A DNA stretch of 46,536 nucleotides from the NCBI GenBank assembly GCA_949295035.1, contig CASFJO010000061.1:1-46536 (forward strand), written 5' to 3'. This document shows positions 10,679 to 29,216 of this stretch, piece after piece (within the stretch, counting starts at the first letter, position 1; each line of letters opens with the position of its first letter). The notes below the pieces were generated by a model. It was not told the origin of the DNA, searched no databases, and saw nothing but the letters and a program-made list of their open reading frames with translations. This DNA comes from an uncultured Gemmiger sp. Its GTDB lineage: Bacteria > Bacillota > Clostridia > Oscillospirales > Ruminococcaceae. The position numbers and the translations under genes are program-made.

Positions 10679-12636
10679 CGTACCACCTCGGCGTTTTCCA
10701 GGCCTGCGGGCAGCCGCACCCGATCACCGTCCCACCGGAGGCAAAGCGGCGGATCGCCCGGAGCAGTGTGCCAGGCGTATTCGCCCGTGTCGCCCGCCAG
10801 AATCAGCTGCATTCCCGTCCCGCCAGCCAGGGTGCCCAGGGGTGCGCCGGCGGGCAGGTCCAGAACCAGGGCGCTGCCCTCCCGCACAAACACCGGGAAG
10901 GTCAGTTCCGGCCCCGCGGTCACTGTCTGCCCGCCCCTAAACATCTGCCCGGTAAAGAGGGCGTACCAGCCGCCCTCCGGCAGCCAGAGGGTGCGGCCGG
11001 TCTGGTTTTCCTCCAGCAGGGGCGCCACCAGCAGGCTTTCTCCCAGCAAAAACTCGTCCCAGCAGGTGCGGGCCTCCTCGCGGCCGGGCCAGTGGTAGAC
11101 CAGCGGCCGCATCAAGGGGCGGCTCTGTGCCACGGCCCGGATGGCCTCGCTGTAGAGATAAGGCAGCAGATTCATCCGCAGCCGGTGCCAGAAGGCCATC
11201 TCCCCGGCAAAGCCCGGCACGGCCCAGGCTCGCTCCATGTTCCAGGGGCTGCGTTCGTTGTTGCCCTCGCCACCGGGCATCAGTTCCCGGAACTGGCCCC
11301 CGTCCGGCTCGGAGTGCCATTGCATGATGGGGCAAAAACAGGCCAGCATGGTGGCCCGGCGGTACAGGCCAGGCGTAGGCAACGGCCCGGCAAAACCGGC
11401 AATGTCAAAGCCCCAGAAGGGGATGCCGGTCAACGCCGCCGACAGTCCCGCCCGCAGGGCGCTGACCAGCTCACTGTTTTGGGACTGTTGATCCCCGGCC
11501 CAGTGGCAGGGAACGGTGTGCTGCCCGGCCCAGCCCGCCCGGCTGAAAAGTACCCGGTCCGGCCCGATGAAATCGGAATAGGCTTCCGTGTACTGCCGGG
11601 CGTAGCGGTTGCGGCCCTCCAGCCCGGTGGAGCCGTCGGCAAAACACGCATCGTCGTCGCAGATAAACTCGCCCCCGTCGGTCTTGAACCCGTCCACACC
11701 CCAGTCCAGAAGATACCGCCGCCGGTCAAACCAGCGCTTCACCGTCTCAGGATTGGTGAAATCCGGCACCATCGACCCGGCGAACCAGTGCCCTTCCGGG
11801 ATGATGTAGGGGGTACCGTCGGCGTTGCGCACGCACAGGCCCAGCCGCATCGCCTCTTCCCGGTCCCGGTCGTTCTGGGGGCAGGGCGGTTCCGCCGGAG
11901 ACTGCTTTTTGTATACCGGAACCTGCCAGAGCACAAAATGTACGCCGGCCTCCTGCAGCCGCCGAATCATGCCCTTCGGATCGGGCCAGGGGCTTTGGGA
12001 AAAGTCGAATTCCTCCCCGGTGGGCCCTTGCGGAGGCAGAGGAGCATACCGGGCGCCGTTGAATATTGAGAAGGTGGCCTCATCGCTCCAGGCCTCCACC
12101 ACCAGTACCGTGGCGGGGCAGTTATGGCGGTGCAACGCCTCCAGCGCCTGTTCTACCGCCGCCTGGCTGTTCCAGTGGTTGGCCGAGACCCAGGGGCCGA
12201 AGGCCCATTTCGGCGGCAGCTTGGCCGGGCCGAACCAGGCCATGTATTCCCGGATCATGGTTTCCGGCGTGCCGGAAAACAGCACCACCGTACCGTTTGA
12301 GGGCAGCAGCACCCGGATGCGATCTTCCTCAAAGGCAAATTCAGTCACCCGGTCGGTGGCCGCGTACAGGCCGAATCCGCTGTCGGTCCAGAAGAAGGGG
12401 GCGGGGCAGTAGGTGTGCTCGCCCTGAAAGCAGAACTTTTCCTCTACCTGGTTGCGCACCGCGCGGCCTTTATGGTTCAGCGGGTCGTATTTTTCGCCCA
12501 GCCCCCAGACGCCCCGATAGGGCAGGCGAACGGTCAGTTCGGTGCCGTTCGCGAGGGGCTGCCAGTTCAGCCGGGCTTCGGTTTCCGGCAGCGGCCAGAC
12601 CAGACGGCCGGTGCCGGTACAAGCAAGTCGTTTCAT
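10669..12636 (-). CDS. GH31 family alpha-glucosidase-like glycoside hydrolase
   Basis: A 655-residue cytoplasmic (no signal peptide) GH31 enzyme. The N-terminal beta-sandwich includes YRGVWGLGEKYDPLNHKG; the (beta/alpha)8 barrel begins around residue 160 (WAFGPWVSANHWNS). The catalytic nucleophile is predicted as D320 in WGVDGFKTDGGEF and the acid/base as D382 in CHWAGDQQ. GH31 members cleave alpha-glucosides, alpha-xylosides or related bonds from the non-reducing end; the neighbours (a phosphorylase and a phosphoglucomutase stub) favour an alpha-glucoside. It lies fifth in a minus-strand region encoding binding protein, two permeases, this enzyme and pgmB, with a 5-bp gap to the permease before it. 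The exact substrate cannot be assigned. Confidence 0.9.
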   Translation of the reverse strand: MKRLACTGTGRLVWPLPETEARLNWQPLANGTELTVRLPYRGVWGLGEKYDPLNHKGRAVRNQVEEKFCFQGEHTYCPAPFFWTDSGFGLYAATDRVTEFAFEEDRIRVLLPSNGTVVLFSGTPETMIREYMAWFGPAKLPPKWAFGPWVSANHWNSQAAVEQALEALHRHNCPATVLVVEAWSDEATFSIFNGARYAPLPPQGPTGEEFDFSQSPWPDPKGMIRRLQEAGVHFVLWQVPVYKKQSPAEPPCPQNDRDREEAMRLGLCVRNADGTPYIIPEGHWFAGSMVPDFTNPETVKRWFDRRRYLLDWGVDGFKTDGGEFICDDDACFADGSTGLEGRNRYARQYTEAYSDFIGPDRVLFSRAGWAGQHTVPCHWAGDQQSQNSELVSALRAGLSAALTGIPFWGFDIAGFAGPLPTPGLYRRATMLACFCPIMQWHSEPDGGQFRELMPGGEGNNERSPWNMERAWAVPGFAGEMAFWHRLRMNLLPYLYSEAIRAVAQSRPLMRPLVYHWPGREEARTCWDEFLLGESLLVAPLLEENQTGRTLWLPEGGWYALFTGQMFRGGQTVTAGPELTFPVFVREGSALVLDLPAGAPLGTLAGGTGMQLILAGDTGEYAWHTAPGDPPLCLRWDGDRVRLPAGLENAEVVRWR

Positions 12637-24021: not shown

Positions 24022-24516
24022 TCACAGCTCCACTACCGGGCGGCAGCTTCCTTCCACGTCCACATAGTAGCACTTTGGATCGGCGGGGTCGCGGTAGACC
24101 GCCACATATTCGTTGTTCAGGGCCGGGTACTCCCAAAGCCGTTCGCTGCGGAAACGGTACACTGTGCCGCCCTCCTCCCATTCGCAGACAACTCGCCAGG
24201 CACACCGGCCGTTCACCCGCACCGACCAGTCCTGCTCCACATCCACAACACGAGCCAGTACCGGGGTGCCTTCCGCCAACAGGCGGGCTTTGCGCCGGGC
24301 GGCATGGGCGCGGGCAAGCAGAATGCTCAGCCCCGCGCCGCCTAAAATGCCGCCGTGAAGCAGGACGAACAGAAATACCGGCCAGGGCGGAAAGTCAGCT
24401 GCACGGACGAGGCTGACTGCGCAGGCGATCAGCAGTGCCAGAAATTCCAGCACGCCGATCGTAAAAAACACGATCCCCAGAATCCGAATGATCAGATCCC
24501 CTCGAGAGCGACTCAT
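24022..24516 (-). CDS. DUF3592-like membrane protein
   Basis: A 164-residue protein with two hydrophobic helices (about residues 9-34 and 45-65) followed by a soluble beta-rich domain containing GTPVLARVVDVEQDW and YVAVYRDPADPKCYYVD, features seen in DUF3592 proteins. Function is unknown for the family; membrane location is clear. The ATG at 24516 is chosen for the GGGAGG site 7 bases upstream. It is the last gene of the FkbH operon strand, starting 14 bp after the GNAT stop, so it is probably co-transcribed, but nothing ties it to acyl chemistry. Confidence 0.75.
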   Translation of the reverse strand: MSRSRGDLIIRILGIVFFTIGVLEFLALLIACAVSLVRAADFPPWPVFLFVLLHGGILGGAGLSILLARAHAARRKARLLAEGTPVLARVVDVEQDWSVRVNGRCAWRVVCEWEEGGTVYRFRSERLWEYPALNNEYVAVYRDPADPKCYYVDVEGSCRPVVEL

Positions 24517-24529
24517 GGTGCAGGCCTCC

Positions 24530-25543
24530 CTATATTGATTCGGCGGGCAGATTCGGCCGGTCCTGGTCACCGTCCGCCCGGAACAGCACAAAATCTTTCG
24601 GCTGACTGGTAAAGTAATAATATTCTGTGTTCTCCCGCACCGGCGGGTCCAGGTAGTTGGGGATGGTGGTCCCGTCGCCTTCCCGCCGCTCGCTCAGGCC
24701 GGCTCGGGCCATCGTTCCGGCCGGGATGCCGGCGCAGTAGCAGTCCAGATATTCCGCGCCGCTCTCCGTCAGAAGCCGGTCCAGCGCGGTGCCCAGCCGG
24801 GCAAGCACTGCGTCTTCTCCGACAAAGTCCACAACGCGCAGGACCCGTACCGACGAGCCGTCCTGCAGACGCACATCCGCCAAGCGGGTCACCAGATAGG
24901 CCAGCAGCTTGCCTCGTTCGGTGGCGCACCATACTTCGTAGCGGTAGTGGTCGAAATTGAAATACCGCCGGGTCATGTACCAGATATCTTTGCGGGGCGT
25001 GTGAGAACTGGGCGGCATGCCCATTCCCTGCAGCCGCGTCACGCTGTGCACCGGGTCCAGAGTCAGATCGCCTTCCGCGGGCAGCCGCGCGGCGTCCGGC
25101 CCGGGCGAGGCCAGACGGTATTCCTTCCGGTCCGCCAACCGGAAAAAGTGCCCGACCCTTCCGGCTTCCCAGCCAAGAAACCGATAAAAGGCCATGGTCT
25201 TGGGCCGGATGTTATTGCAGGCCACCACCCGGGCGCCGGTCAGCTGCGGCAGAGCGTCCATAAGCTCCAGCCCCACGCCGTTGTGGCCCTTGCGGGCCAC
25301 CCACACCGACACCCAGATATCCGGGGAAGGGGAGCGGTTGGCCCGTATGTAGCCGGCCACTGCCAGCCATTCGTCGCCCTCCTGAGCCACCGCGAACTGC
25401 AGCCCGTCGCCGCTTTCGTAATAAAAGCGGAACCATTCCGGCCGGTTCACCAGCGGAAGGCGCCAGTCAAAGTTGGCGTTGACAAAATCCAGTACGCGCT
25501 GCTGTTCTTCCGGACGCGCCAGCCGGAACACCACCCCGCTCAA
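24530..25543 (-). CDS. GNAT family acyltransferase
   Basis: A 337-residue protein whose first half has GNAT features: VVFRLARPEEQQRVLDFVN, then ISVWVARKGHNGVGLELMDAL-like cofactor loop and NNIRPKTMAFYRFLGWE. The second half is not recognised and may be a second, degenerate GNAT domain. The TTG at 25543 overlaps the SDR stop (TTGA) and has GGAGGA at proper distance, so translation is coupled. Because an acyl carrier protein and acyl-processing enzymes precede it, it may move an acyl group from carrier to an amine, for example on an amino sugar; this is inference. No sugar-nucleotide or polysaccharide genes are adjacent. Confidence 0.75.
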   Translation of the reverse strand: MSGVVFRLARPEEQQRVLDFVNANFDWRLPLVNRPEWFRFYYESGDGLQFAVAQEGDEWLAVAGYIRANRSPSPDIWVSVWVARKGHNGVGLELMDALPQLTGARVVACNNIRPKTMAFYRFLGWEAGRVGHFFRLADRKEYRLASPGPDAARLPAEGDLTLDPVHSVTRLQGMGMPPSSHTPRKDIWYMTRRYFNFDHYRYEVWCATERGKLLAYLVTRLADVRLQDGSSVRVLRVVDFVGEDAVLARLGTALDRLLTESGAEYLDCYCAGIPAGTMARAGLSERREGDGTTIPNYLDPPVRENTEYYYFTSQPKDFVLFRADGDQDRPNLPAESI

Positions 25544-26277
25544 AACGCGCTTCCTCCGGTGATGGGCAGGGTGACACCGGTGATAAAGCCGGCCTCGTCG
25601 CCCAGAAGAAACGCCATTGCCGGCACCACATCCTCCACACGGGCGTTTCGGCCCATCGGGTTGGCCTCGGCGCTGGCCTGTACGATCAGATCGCTGGTGT
25701 CCGCCAAGAACCGCGTCTCCATCATGCTGGGGGCCACGCAGTTGACCGTCACGCCAAAGGGCGCGTAGTCGGCGGCCAGGCTTTTGGCCAGCCCGCCCAG
25801 GGCGCTTTTGGCCATGATGTAGGCGGCGGTGTTTTTGGGCGGCACACCGATCAGATAGCTGGTCAGCATGAACAGCACCCGGCCCCGTTTGGCCTTGGCC
25901 ATGGCCGGCAGAAAGGTCTTGCACAGCTTTACCGCACTGCGTACCTGGACCGACAGATCCAGTTCAAAGCGATCCTCGTCAAACTTCTTGAATTTGGTGT
26001 TGATCACCCGCAAAGCGGGCAGGTGCACCAGATGGGTGGGGGCGGAACAATAAGCCTGTACGTCGGCGATAAAGGCGCCCAGCGCGTGCGGATCGGTCAG
26101 GTCCACATCGTAGGTGCGGATCCGGCCGGGGAACTCCCGGCACAACTCGGCCAACCGGTTCAGGTCCCCGGCGCCCTGGGCGATAAACATCGACTCGCCG
26201 TCCTGGCCCGCCAGGCGGCGGATCAGCGCACAGCCCACATCGCTGGAAGCGCCGGTAATGAGATAGATGTCCTGCAT
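25540..26277 (-). CDS. SDR family oxidoreductase (3-ketoacyl-ACP reductase-like)
   Basis: A 245-residue short-chain dehydrogenase. The nucleotide-binding motif TGASSDVG is near residue 7, and the catalytic Ser-Tyr-Lys set appears as MLTSYLIG then AAYIMAKSALGGLA. The tail GDEAGFITGVTLPITGGSAF is typical of FabG-like reductases. With the adjacent acyl carrier protein and MaoC hydratase it would reduce a beta-keto or related group on a carrier-bound acyl chain, but free-substrate SDRs look the same. It overlaps the GNAT gene at its end and begins 20 bp after MaoC, with AAAGGAG before its ATG. Confidence 0.88.
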   Translation of the reverse strand: MQDIYLITGASSDVGCALIRRLAGQDGESMFIAQGAGDLNRLAELCREFPGRIRTYDVDLTDPHALGAFIADVQAYCSAPTHLVHLPALRVINTKFKKFDEDRFELDLSVQVRSAVKLCKTFLPAMAKAKRGRVLFMLTSYLIGVPPKNTAAYIMAKSALGGLAKSLAADYAPFGVTVNCVAPSMMETRFLADTSDLIVQASAEANPMGRNARVEDVVPAMAFLLGDEAGFITGVTLPITGGSAF

Positions 26278-26296
26278 GGGTCGCTCCTTTCGGTAT

Positions 26297-26713
26297 TCAA
26301 CGGGCCACCCCGGCCTTGATCAGGCCACGGGTGACCTTTTTGCCGTCCTGGTTTACCAGGCTGGCCCGGATGGTGATCTCTCCAAATACCGGGTTCACCT
26401 CGGTCACTTCGCCCCGGACCGTCAGGGTATCGCCGATAAAGACGGGCTTGGCGAACTTGACCTCCACACCGTGCAGCAGGCAATGTTCACCCGGCAGATA
26501 GACCCCCGCCAGTGTGGAGAAGAAGCTGGCGCCCAGCATGCCGTAGACCACACGTCCGGGGTACCCGCGCCCGGCAGCATAGTCAGGGTCGATATGGATG
26601 GGGCTCACATCGCCGGTAATGGCGCGGAACCGGTCCATCATCTCCTCGGTGACCGTCACGGTAAATTCCTCGGCCATACCGGGCTGCAGCTGTTCCATGG
26701 TATAGTGGTTCAT
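26297..26713 (-). CDS. MaoC-like (R)-specific enoyl hydratase, hot-dog fold
   Basis: A 138-residue single hot-dog domain. The hydratase signature ITGDVSPIHIDPDYA gives the catalytic pair D35 and H40. Single-domain MaoC proteins add or remove water on (R)-3-hydroxyacyl thioesters, either CoA or ACP. Its place between an acyl carrier protein and an SDR points to carrier-bound chemistry in this operon. Length is normal. Confidence 0.88.
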   Translation of the reverse strand: MNHYTMEQLQPGMAEEFTVTVTEEMMDRFRAITGDVSPIHIDPDYAAGRGYPGRVVYGMLGASFFSTLAGVYLPGEHCLLHGVEVKFAKPVFIGDTLTVRGEVTEVNPVFGEITIRASLVNQDGKKVTRGLIKAGVAR

Positions 26714-26793
26714 AGTTTGCCCTCCAGCAGCAAAAAGAGCCGGGCGCGTATACCGGGCACAAAGCCCGGCCGGCGTCCGGCCCGGGGATGGAT

Positions 26794-27036
26794 TCAGGCG
26801 GTCAGCCGCTGCACAAGATCCAGCAGGTCGCCCACGTGCTGCAGCCCGCGCACATCCTCCAGTTTGAACTTGATGCCGAACCGGCGTTCAATGGCGGTGA
26901 GCAGGTTGATCTGCTCCAGGCTGTCCCAGTCCTCGATATCGTCGGCGCAGGTGGCCGGCCCGATCACCAGGCTGTCATCGTCAAAATTATCCCGGAAGAT
27001 CTCCTGCACTTCAGCCAGGATCGCGTCACGCTCCAT
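26794..27036 (-). CDS. Acyl carrier protein, stand-alone
   Basis: An 80-residue carrier protein. The phosphopantetheine attachment site is S39 in IEDWDSLEQINLL (DSL motif). It is acidic and ends in helix IV (DVRGLQHVGDLLDLVQRL). It differs from housekeeping AcpP: it lies in an operon directly after FkbH, as in loci where FkbH loads a glyceryl unit onto a dedicated carrier. The ATG at 27036 has GGAGAGG upstream. No phosphopantetheinyl transferase is nearby. Confidence 0.9.
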   Translation of the reverse strand: MERDAILAEVQEIFRDNFDDDSLVIGPATCADDIEDWDSLEQINLLTAIERRFGIKFKLEDVRGLQHVGDLLDLVQRLTA

Positions 27037-27050
27037 CTTCGTACCTCTCC

Positions 27051-28829
27051 TTATACCCGTTTGATTTCCATTACGCCGCATTGAGGCTGGTATCCTTCCA
27101 GCGCCGTAAACACAAAGGTGCGGTTGCCGGCCTCGTCCTCGGCGGTTTGTTCAAAGCCGATTGTAGCATAAAAGTCCCGTACAAGCAAGTTTTTTGCGGT
27201 AGGGTAGTAGTGCCCCACGATCCTCTTCACGCCCTTGTCCCGCGCCAGCCGTACCAGTTCGTCAAACATGGCGTGTTCCAGCCGCCGCTTGAAGGTGCGG
27301 CAACTCATGATCCACAGTTCGATATCCAGCGTTTCCCCCTCCAGCCGGCCGATCAGGGCGGTCACGATGCCGTTGTCCCCGAACTTGTCCACCAGCCGGC
27401 CGTAAAGGGTGATGTGACCGGGATCACCGATCAGCCCTTCCACCTCGGCAGGGGTGTAGCGGCGTGTGGTCAGATTGAACTGGTTTGTCTTGTTGATCAG
27501 CTGGCAGATGCGCTCGGCGTGCTCGTTGTCAAAAACGCCAAACTCGCCGGTCATCTCCAGGCTGCGCAGATAGTCGTTGTAGTCGGTGAAACTCTGTTGA
27601 GCCGCCTCCCGCTGCGCGTTCTGCTTATACATTTCCACCCGTTTTCGGTCGTCCGCCGACAGGGTGGTCACTTCAAAATAGCCACTGCGGTCGATGGCGG
27701 CGATATATTCCTCCGGGCTGGTGAGTTCCGGTACCGCCACCCCCGGCAGCTGGGTGCGCACGATCTCCCGCTCGGCCGGGTTGTCGTCCACAAATACGAA
27801 ACTTTCCGGCAGCAGATTCAATTCCTTGGCCATTGCCGCCAGATTTTCATGCTTGGACTCCCAGTTGGCCTTGAAGCTGACGAAATCCTCCCGGCGCAGT
27901 ACGCTGTCCGCCCGGGCCAGCCCGGCCAGCGCGTTGGCCTCCTCGTTTTTGCTGCATACATTCAGCAGCACGCCGGTCTGGGCCAGTTCCTTCAGATACC
28001 CCTGAAATTCGCTGTAGGCCATGCCAGCGGGGCTTTCGCTGCCCAGCGCCAGCCCTTCGGGCCCATCGTCCCCTACGATACCGCCCCACAGGGTATTGTC
28101 CAGATCCAGCGCCAGCGCCTTTTTGTTCCGGCCCAGCAGGCTCTTGATGATGTTTGCCACGCTTTGGCACAGATAGGGGATGCAGGCGATGGCGCAGCAA
28201 TATTTGTAGGCGTACCAGGCGGTCTGATCGCTGAAACGATCCATGCCCAGCTGCGCCTGCAGATAGGCCAGGTCGTTCAGGTAAAGATTGGGGGTGGCGT
28301 CGGCAAGAGCGGCCAGCTTTTCGTTCAGCCGGCGCACAAAACGCACCCGGCCCCGGGCGTCGCTGCCTTCCCGGTTGCCCATCACACGATAGACCGGCAG
28401 TTCAAAGTTGTTCAGGATCACCGGACAGCCCAGCCCCAGCGCCGCTTTTGCGGCCGCCTCAAACCGGGCGTATTCCGCCGCCAGCAGTTCCTCGGCCCGC
28501 TGTGCGGTATCGGCCGGGCAGGGCCAGCCGCGGACATTGCGGCTGCTGGTGTGGATATAGACAAAGTCCGGGGAAAAGGCCGCGAGGCTCCCGTCGTCAA
28601 ACACCAGATTCTCATAGAACAATCCGTACCCGCCCTGCCAGAATACCGGCCGGATGCCCTGCGCCAGCAAAAACAGTTCCAGAATATTCTGTATCTCCCC
28701 GATGGTGCTGCCGCTGAGAATGGCAACACGCTTTTCCACAAGCCCTTCCCGGGCGCTGAGCTCCCGTTTCAGGGCCCGCTTTTTCTGCAGGATAAGGGCG
28801 GCGTCGATGGGATGATCCAGAATGTTCAT
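27051..28829 (-). CDS. FkbH-like HAD-IIIC phosphatase, predicted glyceryl-ACP synthase
   Basis: A 592-residue protein with three parts: an SGNH-hydrolase-like N-domain (about 1-235), a HAD-IIIC domain (about 236-390) and a GNAT-like C-domain (about 410-592). HAD motif I is LDLDNTLWGG with D242 and D244, motif II CSKNEE, motif III in SKHENLAAM, and motif IV VFVDDNPAERE. FkbH-type enzymes are known to take a three-carbon phosphoglycerate unit from 1,3-bisphosphoglycerate and place it, dephosphorylated, on an acyl carrier protein. The following carrier-protein gene is 15 bp away, supporting that role. The ATG at 28829 has GGAGG upstream. It heads the operon; no strong promoter was seen in the 78-bp gap, so it may be read from the BofC-like gene. 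Confidence 0.88.
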   Translation of the reverse strand: MNILDHPIDAALILQKKRALKRELSAREGLVEKRVAILSGSTIGEIQNILELFLLAQGIRPVFWQGGYGLFYENLVFDDGSLAAFSPDFVYIHTSSRNVRGWPCPADTAQRAEELLAAEYARFEAAAKAALGLGCPVILNNFELPVYRVMGNREGSDARGRVRFVRRLNEKLAALADATPNLYLNDLAYLQAQLGMDRFSDQTAWYAYKYCCAIACIPYLCQSVANIIKSLLGRNKKALALDLDNTLWGGIVGDDGPEGLALGSESPAGMAYSEFQGYLKELAQTGVLLNVCSKNEEANALAGLARADSVLRREDFVSFKANWESKHENLAAMAKELNLLPESFVFVDDNPAEREIVRTQLPGVAVPELTSPEEYIAAIDRSGYFEVTTLSADDRKRVEMYKQNAQREAAQQSFTDYNDYLRSLEMTGEFGVFDNEHAERICQLINKTNQFNLTTRRYTPAEVEGLIGDPGHITLYGRLVDKFGDNGIVTALIGRLEGETLDIELWIMSCRTFKRRLEHAMFDELVRLARDKGVKRIVGHYYPTAKNLLVRDFYATIGFEQTAEDEAGNRTFVFTALEGYQPQCGVMEIKRV

Positions 28830-28907: not shown

Positions 28908-29216
28908 TTACCAGCCAAAGTCCTCCAGCAATCGCTGCAGTTCCTCCTCGCTGTATACCGGGATGCCCTCCCGCAGCGCCAGCACATCCTGTTCCGGCAG
29001 CAGGTTGGTGTACACCCCCGCGTAGACCTCGTCGGGCGGCTGCGCGGTATCCTGGCCGGGCTCGTACCGGGCCACCCGTCCATTCAGATCCCGCAGCACG
29101 TACAGGGGCTGCCGGGGAGCGGGTTCTACCCGGCGGGGCGCCAGCATCCACAAAAGCGCCAGCGCCAGCGCCAGCACGCACAGCGCCGCCAGCGCCCAAA
29201 ACCATCGTTTGCTCAT
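28908..29216 (-). CDS. Small membrane-anchored protein with BofC C-terminal-like domain
   Basis: A 102-residue protein with one N-terminal membrane helix (MSKRWFWALAALCVLALALALLW, helix from about 5 to 24) and an outside domain of the pattern YVLRDLNGRVARYEPG, YTNLLPEQDVLALREGIPVYSEEELQRLLEDF. That pattern resembles the BofC C-terminal domain found in sporulation regulators and in short Clostridia lipoproteins. Function is unknown; no sporulation gene is in the window. The ATG at 29216 has AAAGGAGG upstream. It is divergent from the penicillin-binding protein and lies upstream of the FkbH operon on the same strand. Confidence 0.7.
   Translation of the reverse strand: MSKRWFWALAALCVLALALALLWMLAPRRVEPAPRQPLYVLRDLNGRVARYEPGQDTAQPPDEVYAGVYTNLLPEQDVLALREGIPVYSEEELQRLLEDFGW

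Follow-up and report, generated by a model that had tools for sequence, protein, structure and literature searches.

A Conserved FkbH-ACP-MaoC-SDR Operon of Gemmiger and Its Proposed Role in the Acylation of Legionaminic Acid

Introduction

What does a five-gene operon with an FkbH-type enzyme, its own carrier protein and a putative acyltransferase make, and on which molecule does it place its product? The question was raised by a DNA stretch of 46,536 nucleotides from an uncultured Gemmiger sp. (assembly GCA_949295035.1, contig CASFJO010000061.1, positions 1 to 46,536; "the window" hereafter means this whole stretch), which encodes in succession an FkbH-type protein, an acyl carrier protein (ACP), a MaoC-type hydratase, a short-chain dehydrogenase/reductase (SDR) and a GNAT-like protein. 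Legionaminic acid (Leg) is a bacterial look-alike of sialic acid, and unusual N-acyl groups on such look-alikes are already known. In the present study, we concluded that the operon probably provides a C3 acyl group on a carrier protein and passes it on during Leg biosynthesis, with the GNAT-like enzyme taking the place of the acyltransferase LegH. This reading is based on a conserved gene set, on its occurrence together with NeuB and other Leg genes, on a Leg cluster in which no acyltransferase was found, and on linkage in three loci.

LegH and PseH carry out the N-acylation of the 4-amine (passages of PMC13317340, PMC6137143 and PMC6388019). The formation of glyceryl-ACP from FkbH and an ACP has been proposed for tetronates (passages of PMC7489565). 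The nonulosonic acid of Tannerella forsythia bears an N7-glyceroyl group, for which the candidate gene "remains elusive" (passages of PMC6120980, 2018). The present gene set gives a testable answer on N-glyceroyl and points to carrier proteins as a further source of acyl groups for N-acylation besides acetyl-CoA. Since some of the genomes carrying it come from gut samples, the host immune system may meet the sugar daily.

Organization and Conservation of the Operon

The five genes run head to tail on the minus strand from 24530 to 28829, in the order given by the original prediction, which had been made from the sequence alone:

27051..28829, minus strand: FkbH-type HAD-IIIC protein, 592 aa; proposed glyceryl loader for the ACP
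26794..27036, minus strand: dedicated acyl carrier protein, 80 aa; Ser39; PF00550 over cut-off
26297..26713, minus strand: MaoC-type (R)-hydratase/dehydratase, 138 aa; Asp35/His40; PF01575 with an expectation value (E) of 3.1e-20
25540..26277, minus strand: FabG-like SDR reductase, 245 aa; YxxxK; PF13561 E 7e-36
24530..25543, minus strand: GNAT-like acyltransferase, proposed LegH substitute, 337 aa; TTG start; C-terminal ADGDQDRPN

The gaps calculated from the coordinates were 14, 80 and 19 bp, each within one base of the predicted values, followed by a 4-bp overlap in which the start of the GNAT-like gene sits in the stop of the SDR gene (TTGA). FkbH scored 296.1 bits against TIGR01686 (cut-off 146.65) and also passed the cut-off of FkbH_N, and the PP-binding, MaoC_dehydratas and adh_short_C2 domains all exceeded their Pfam cut-offs. 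FkbH matched the solved structure of BF1531 (3slr, E 1e-46); the nearest solved relatives of MaoC were (R)-specific enoyl-CoA hydratases, and those of the SDR were 3-oxoacyl-ACP reductases. The catalytic residues that had been predicted to be intact were all read from the translations, namely D242 and D244 of FkbH, S39 of the ACP, D35 and H40 of MaoC, and the YxxxK motif of the SDR. In FkbH, D242 and D244 (DLDNTLWGG; HAD motif DxD) and C510 (MSCR, C-terminal domain) were invariant in 14 of 14 aligned sequences. The operon ACP was one of three PP-binding places found in the window genome. A scan with Pfam and NCBIfam detected no condensing enzyme (ketoacyl-ACP synthase, KAS) among the five operon proteins.

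Gene order was compared in the best 80 of 181 loci (the named loci), which had been selected by the presence of the peptide [KR]ADGDQDR and were thus found via the GNAT-like gene. The five-gene order with gaps below 500 bp was observed in 37 of the 80, and in 3 others it was interrupted after the ACP by an insertion of 0.8-6.8 kb. A further 25 loci carried ACP-MaoC-SDR-GNAT without FkbH, and 23 of these were labelled Gemmiger or Subdoligranulum. Conservation of the order in relatives, on which the original prediction had been staked, was therefore borne out. Among the genomes of the 25 four-gene loci, 24 were tested, and all 24 had one FkbH elsewhere (over the cut-off in 23, and as two pieces below the cut-off in one), indicating that the gene changes place without disappearing. 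The remaining 15 named loci had neither arrangement. Seven of them (L068, L100, L104, L106, L111, L117 and L124) started no more than about 450 bases from the first gene seen and may be cut; L119, L122 and L125 contained MaoC-SDR-GNAT only; L107 and L113 lacked MaoC and SDR; L098 had none of the other four genes; and in L094 and L095 the GNAT-like gene stood at a Leg operon.

The GNAT-like protein was present in 23 of 149 relatives, the window genome included, and FkbH accompanied it in all 23; a search at class level gave 4 of 391 genomes, again counting the window genome. The gene set occurred in Gemmiger, Subdoligranulum, Fournierella, Ruthenibacterium and their kin, some of them from gut samples according to record titles. 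A plasmid search yielded one record. OY725877.1 of Subdoligranulum variabile (L274) carries the operon. Because the genes retain their order and strand across many species, including Subdoligranulum variabile, the operon is not a chance arrangement. OY725877.1 is 267 kb long and filed as a plasmid, and it may be a mis-circularised piece of chromosome; its operon lies near a GHMP kinase resembling homoserine kinase.

Association with Legionaminic Acid Biosynthesis

NeuB was called with PF03102 at E<=5e-65, a threshold set after seeing a gap from 4.8e-65 to 3.4e-13. Among the 149 relatives, NeuB was found in 23 of 23 GNAT-positive versus 11 of 126 GNAT-negative genomes (Fisher 4.6e-19, not kinship-corrected); within the family only, the counts were 23 of 23 versus 10 of 67. 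Nine of the 11 NeuB proteins in GNAT-negative genomes were distant: they were 31-39% identical to the window-genome LegI, had no LegG match beside them, and were surrounded by other Leg genes at 25-39% or by none. The other two (G002 and G049) belonged to Leg clusters in genomes that were 75% and 73% complete, respectively. In a second set of genomes, NeuB exceeded 300 bits in 34 of 37, a count likewise not corrected for kinship. Two genomes, G058 and G017, each had two NeuB places, one of which was looked at in each; in the GNAT-positive G017, the stretch seen had no Leg-type cluster, and its NeuB, at 35%, was accompanied by an ACP-like gene. The NeuB cluster of G067 (L290) had its own small GNAT of an ordinary Pfam type.

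The original prediction had described an operon with no sugar genes, a picture that changes once the rest of the genome is considered. The window genome encodes LegB, LegC, LegI, LegG and LegF together on another contig (C51), apart from the operon. Four of these proteins passed their NCBIfam cut-offs: LegB (TIGR04180, 500 bits versus 475), LegC (TIGR04181, 456 versus 420), LegI (TIGR03569, 461 versus 400) and LegG (TIGR03568, 386 versus 236). LegF was weak (PseF, 65.8 bits versus 205.7). The order on C51 was LegB, DUF2142 and further membrane proteins, LegC, a PtmE-like gene, LegI, LegG, two Gfo/Idh genes and the LegF-like gene. Family models were run on the Leg proteins and on the additional gene calls lying between LegB and LegF, and they revealed no LegH or other acyltransferase in this cluster; LegH was not searched for elsewhere in the genome. 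A second NeuB of the window genome (L266, G000:C49) lies in a sugar cluster with a TPP-enzyme-like protein and a small protein that looks GNAT-like by eye.

In three other loci, the GNAT-like gene was located inside the Leg cluster itself. The nonulosonic acid cluster of L041 is complete, and there the gene lay immediately downstream of LegB. In L094/L269 and in L095, it came first in the run GNAT-amidotransferase-LegB-LegC-PtmE-LegI-LegG-Gfo-Gfo-LegF. None of these runs contained an unassigned gene between Leg genes. The NCBIfam cut-offs were passed by LegB, LegC and LegI of L269, by LegB and LegC of L095, and by LegC and LegI of L041, and all three clusters encoded an N-acetyl sugar amidotransferase (TIGR03573 over cut-off). 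The trio ACP-MaoC-SDR was 2.6 kb upstream of the GNAT-like gene in L095 and about 11 kb away on the same contig in G561 (L234/L269). Altogether, 19 NeuB places were fetched, including that of the window genome, and BLAST recognized a Leg set in 16, some cut by contig ends. For loci other than that of the window genome, the check for LegH used family models on ten odd genes of seven Leg loci, and the rest relied on BLAST grouping only.

In G081, the operon was split in three: FkbH, an MBOAT gene and a 327-aa protein without a Pfam family at L262 (8336-12676), ACP-MaoC-SDR close to a sugar epimerase on a different contig (L233), and the GNAT-like gene within the Leg cluster of L041. In G026 (L039, 12753-18159), LegF was grouped with two Gfo/Idh genes, a gene for a DUF1574 protein and an MBOAT gene at a distance of about 11 kb from the operon.

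Classification of the GNAT-like Protein

A LegH gene is expected in or linked to a Leg cluster, and its product should show homology to one of the known acetyltransferase families of the GNAT or hexapeptide type. The GNAT-like gene was so placed in L041, L094/L269 and L095 and was not adjacent to the Leg cluster in the window genome; its protein showed no such homology. The window protein had no Pfam or NCBIfam match at E<=0.1 and no PDB match better than E 1.4, its halves compared with four small GNATs by profile comparison (hhalign) gave nothing significant, and the copies from L041, L269 and L095 matched no GNAT or hexapeptide model of Pfam. An alignment of the GNAT-like protein comprised 19 sequences. 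The label GNAT, assigned in the original prediction, was thus confirmed by no family model and rests on appearance. We propose that the fifth protein works like LegH, and we do not class it as a member of the LegH family.

A tree of the GNAT-like proteins was built from 105 rows, reduced to 91 after removal of identical rows; rows with fewer than 250 aligned residues were left out. The L269 and L095 copies nested among the operon copies, and several of the branches surrounding them were supported; L041, a distant homologue, formed a long branch of unsure placement. Other distant homologues adjoined a polysaccharide deacetylase (PF01522) in L045 and L236. L045 also held an ACP-like gene, enzymes that look dependent on thiamine pyrophosphate (TPP), and NeuB, and another distant homologue, in L235, stood with ACP-like genes, a KAS III, an AMP-binding enzyme and an Antibiotic_NAT protein.

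Proposed Pathway and the Identity of the Acyl Group

From the families of the encoded proteins, we infer what each enzyme does and which acyl group is made. FkbH would load glycerate from 1,3-bisphosphoglycerate onto the dedicated ACP. MaoC would then remove the 3-hydroxyl of glyceryl-ACP as water to give pyruvyl-ACP, which the FabG-like SDR could reduce to lactyl-ACP by the simplest route. The GNAT-like enzyme is proposed to place the acyl group on the 4-amine of the LegC product, a step done elsewhere by LegH with acetyl. LegG, LegI and LegF, encoded at the other genome place, would complete CMP-Leg with an N5 acetyl and an N7 lactoyl or glyceroyl group. The central idea of the original prediction, a C3-type acyl group passed from a dedicated carrier to an amine, fits this evidence and appears right in outline, and of the acceptors it named an amino sugar is the probable one.

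It is conceivable, if improbable, that the operon acts on Leg with an acyl group not derived from C3, either another phospho-acyl group handled by FkbH or a hydroxybutyryl-type chain, as in N7-hydroxybutyryl Leg. MaoC and the SDR resemble a hydratase and a reductase of the fatty-acid type, N-hydroxybutyryl is a listed substituent of nonulosonic acids (passages of PMC6388019), and a distant relative of the GNAT-like protein, in L235, is accompanied by KAS III, AMP-binding and ACP-like genes. The lack of a KAS in the five-gene set argues against such a chain, as does the FkbH score, which exceeds the cut-off of a family whose proposed substrate is 1,3-bisphosphoglycerate. Among the open-licence PMC papers listed, none was found that ties FkbH to Leg or pseudaminic acid (Pse) acylation; those listed on flagellin glycans led to one FkbH mention, cj1302. 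On a lactyl route from FkbH, the passages of PMC10143770, one of the papers brought up, concern glycerate. The terms searched in PMC7371886 and PMC13130089 brought up nothing on a carrier protein.

Several observations weigh against a role of the operon in Leg acylation as we propose it. Relatives share ancestry, and the co-occurrence counts therefore overstate independence. Three GNAT-positive genomes (L257, L258 and L260) had a LegI-like gene at 58-60% and no contiguous Leg cluster in the stretch fetched. The Leg cluster of G001 (L246), one of the 16 recognized by BLAST, held a second acyltransferase, NAT_N/GNAT_C. The scope of the LegH check in the window genome, limited to its cluster, counts on the same side, and so does a statement on the range Cj1296-Cj1310 in a passage of PMC13317340. 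As judged from its sequence, the fifth protein has no recognised fold, and it is perhaps something other than a GNAT. FkbH and the GNAT-like gene occurred without a MaoC homologue in G559, G560 and G017, so the remodelling is not universal, and L107 (G559) showed no ACP nearby. G559 and G560 carried a strong NeuB and may use unmodified glyceryl. Within the L246 cluster, the NAT_N/GNAT_C gene lies at 10941-11783, between PtmE and LegI, and no such gene was seen in the three congeneric loci L245, L247 and L263.

Finally, in the second set of genomes, G149 and G158 carried the gene set with no NeuB above 25 bits, and NeuB of G563 reached only 187 bits. G149 and G158 would fit a different acceptor amine, in a peptide, a lipid or another amino sugar, the link to Leg then being due to shared ancestry or chance clustering. 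The separation of the window operon from the Leg cluster and the polysaccharide deacetylases beside the distant relatives in L045 and L236 agree with this. We consider this explanation very doubtful, for the three linkages inside Leg clusters and the missing LegH are hard to explain if the acceptor is not Leg.

Association of FkbH with MBOAT and SGNH-like Genes

A further point against a role confined to Leg acylation comes from FkbH itself, whose position beside SGNH-like and MBOAT genes in Gemmiger suggests another use of its product. Of the 13 Gemmiger-type loci that were fetched (L157-L169), 11 had FkbH directly before an SGNH-like gene and an MBOAT, with no ACP seen beside it, and FkbH also preceded an MBOAT in L262; among the loci examined, an MBOAT adjoined FkbH nowhere else. 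In L123, an MBOAT was among the opposite-strand genes between ACP and MaoC. Pfam checks covered one MBOAT and three SGNH-like proteins, all three below the GDSL cut-off. Of 22 genomes searched with the SGNH profile A2, three from Gemmiger gave strong matches and six others gave weak ones (E 1e-9 or worse).

On this evidence, the acyl-ACP might serve mainly for O-acylation, with the MBOAT and SGNH-like proteins esterifying a surface polymer with glycerate or lactate and the GNAT-like protein forming a side branch. We regard this as unlikely. Neither an MBOAT nor an SGNH gene was found in the window operon or adjoining it, and the usual companion of ACP-MaoC-SDR was the GNAT-like gene, not an MBOAT, in loci that had been found via the GNAT-like gene. 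Each of the 22 genomes tested held 3 to 8 MBOAT places, a number that might seem to favor O-acylation; however, MBOAT genes are common in these genomes, linked or not, which weakens a simple MBOAT link.

Leg acylation could also be one of two uses. As a tentative extension of the proposed pathway, glyceryl-ACP from a single FkbH per genome might be a shared surface currency, from which MaoC, SDR and the GNAT-like enzyme form a lactoyl or glyceroyl amide on Leg and the SGNH-like and MBOAT proteins attach the same acyl group as an ester to a surface polymer. If this is true, the ester branch would be a Dlt-like system drawing directly on a glycolytic intermediate. The relocated FkbH of L157-L169, with its SGNH-like and MBOAT neighbours, forms a possible Dlt-like esterification set. 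A combination of FkbH and MBOAT in print was traced to work on cyanobacterial peptides, in which the MBOAT has a sugar as its acylation target and no link to FkbH.

Comparison with Known Systems

In the Dlt system, D-alanine is activated by the adenylating DltA, held as a small acyl group on a carrier, and esterified by DltB (MBOAT) and DltD (SGNH). The small carrier-bound acyl group and, in Gemmiger, the MBOAT and SGNH-like partners near FkbH are similar. In contrast, FkbH is not an adenylating DltA, and the window operon, being without an MBOAT, does not combine an MBOAT and an SGNH gene with carrier and loader as a Dlt-type operon does. The lactyl loading module of the bryostatin synthase BryA, for which no paper was found, is said to begin with FkbH and to proceed by dehydration and reduction of glycerate; if so, the window differs in that its enzymes are discrete and the product would be passed to an amine.

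The Leg pathway with LegH follows a GDP route in Campylobacter jejuni and a UDP route in Legionella pneumophila (passages of PMC6137143) and is also represented by the sps genes of Bacillus subtilis (passages of PMC7439481). The window genome shares LegB, LegC, LegI and LegG and has LegF-like and PtmE-like proteins, but instead of a LegH in the cluster we found the GNAT-like protein and a putative acyl supply on a carrier. LegH of P. shigelloides is a 217-aa relative of NeuD (passages of PMC4481668), and B. subtilis uses the putative acetyltransferase SpsD (passages of PMC7439481). N-glyceroyl pseudaminic acid of T. forsythia (Pse5Am7Gra) shares with the proposed product the N7 glyceroyl on a nonulosonic acid, and differs in being Pse, not Leg. 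The amidotransferase encoded in the clusters of L041, L269 and L095 is a further resemblance.

FkbH with a standalone ACP is also common to the FkbH/ACP modules for tetronates and methoxymalonate (passages of PMC7489565). Unlike these, the window has MaoC, SDR and the GNAT-like protein and lacks a FabH-like ring former, a methyltransferase and a polyketide synthase. The eight proteins scanned between 22674 and 29318 included one SDR and no acyl dehydrogenase or methyltransferase, whereas a methoxymalonyl-ACP operon has two dehydrogenases and an O-methyltransferase next to FkbH and ACP; they also did not include the FabH-like protein that follows FkbH and ACP in the glycerate-utilisation operons for tetronates.

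Neighboring Genes

Two small genes flank the operon on the same strand:

28908..29216, minus strand: BofC_C-like small protein with a hydrophobic N-terminal stretch; PF08955 E 0.006, below cut-off
24022..24516, minus strand: DUF3592-like protein; PF12158 E 0.056 and PF10745 E 0.008, both below cut-off

The BofC_C-like gene lies 78 bp upstream of FkbH. A gene of this kind was found on the same strand within 800 bp before FkbH or the ACP in 44 of the 80 named loci, and it is possibly a member of the operon. The DUF3592-like gene begins 13 bp downstream of the operon; among the same loci it was beside the operon solely in L047 and L048, and it is probably a local addition.

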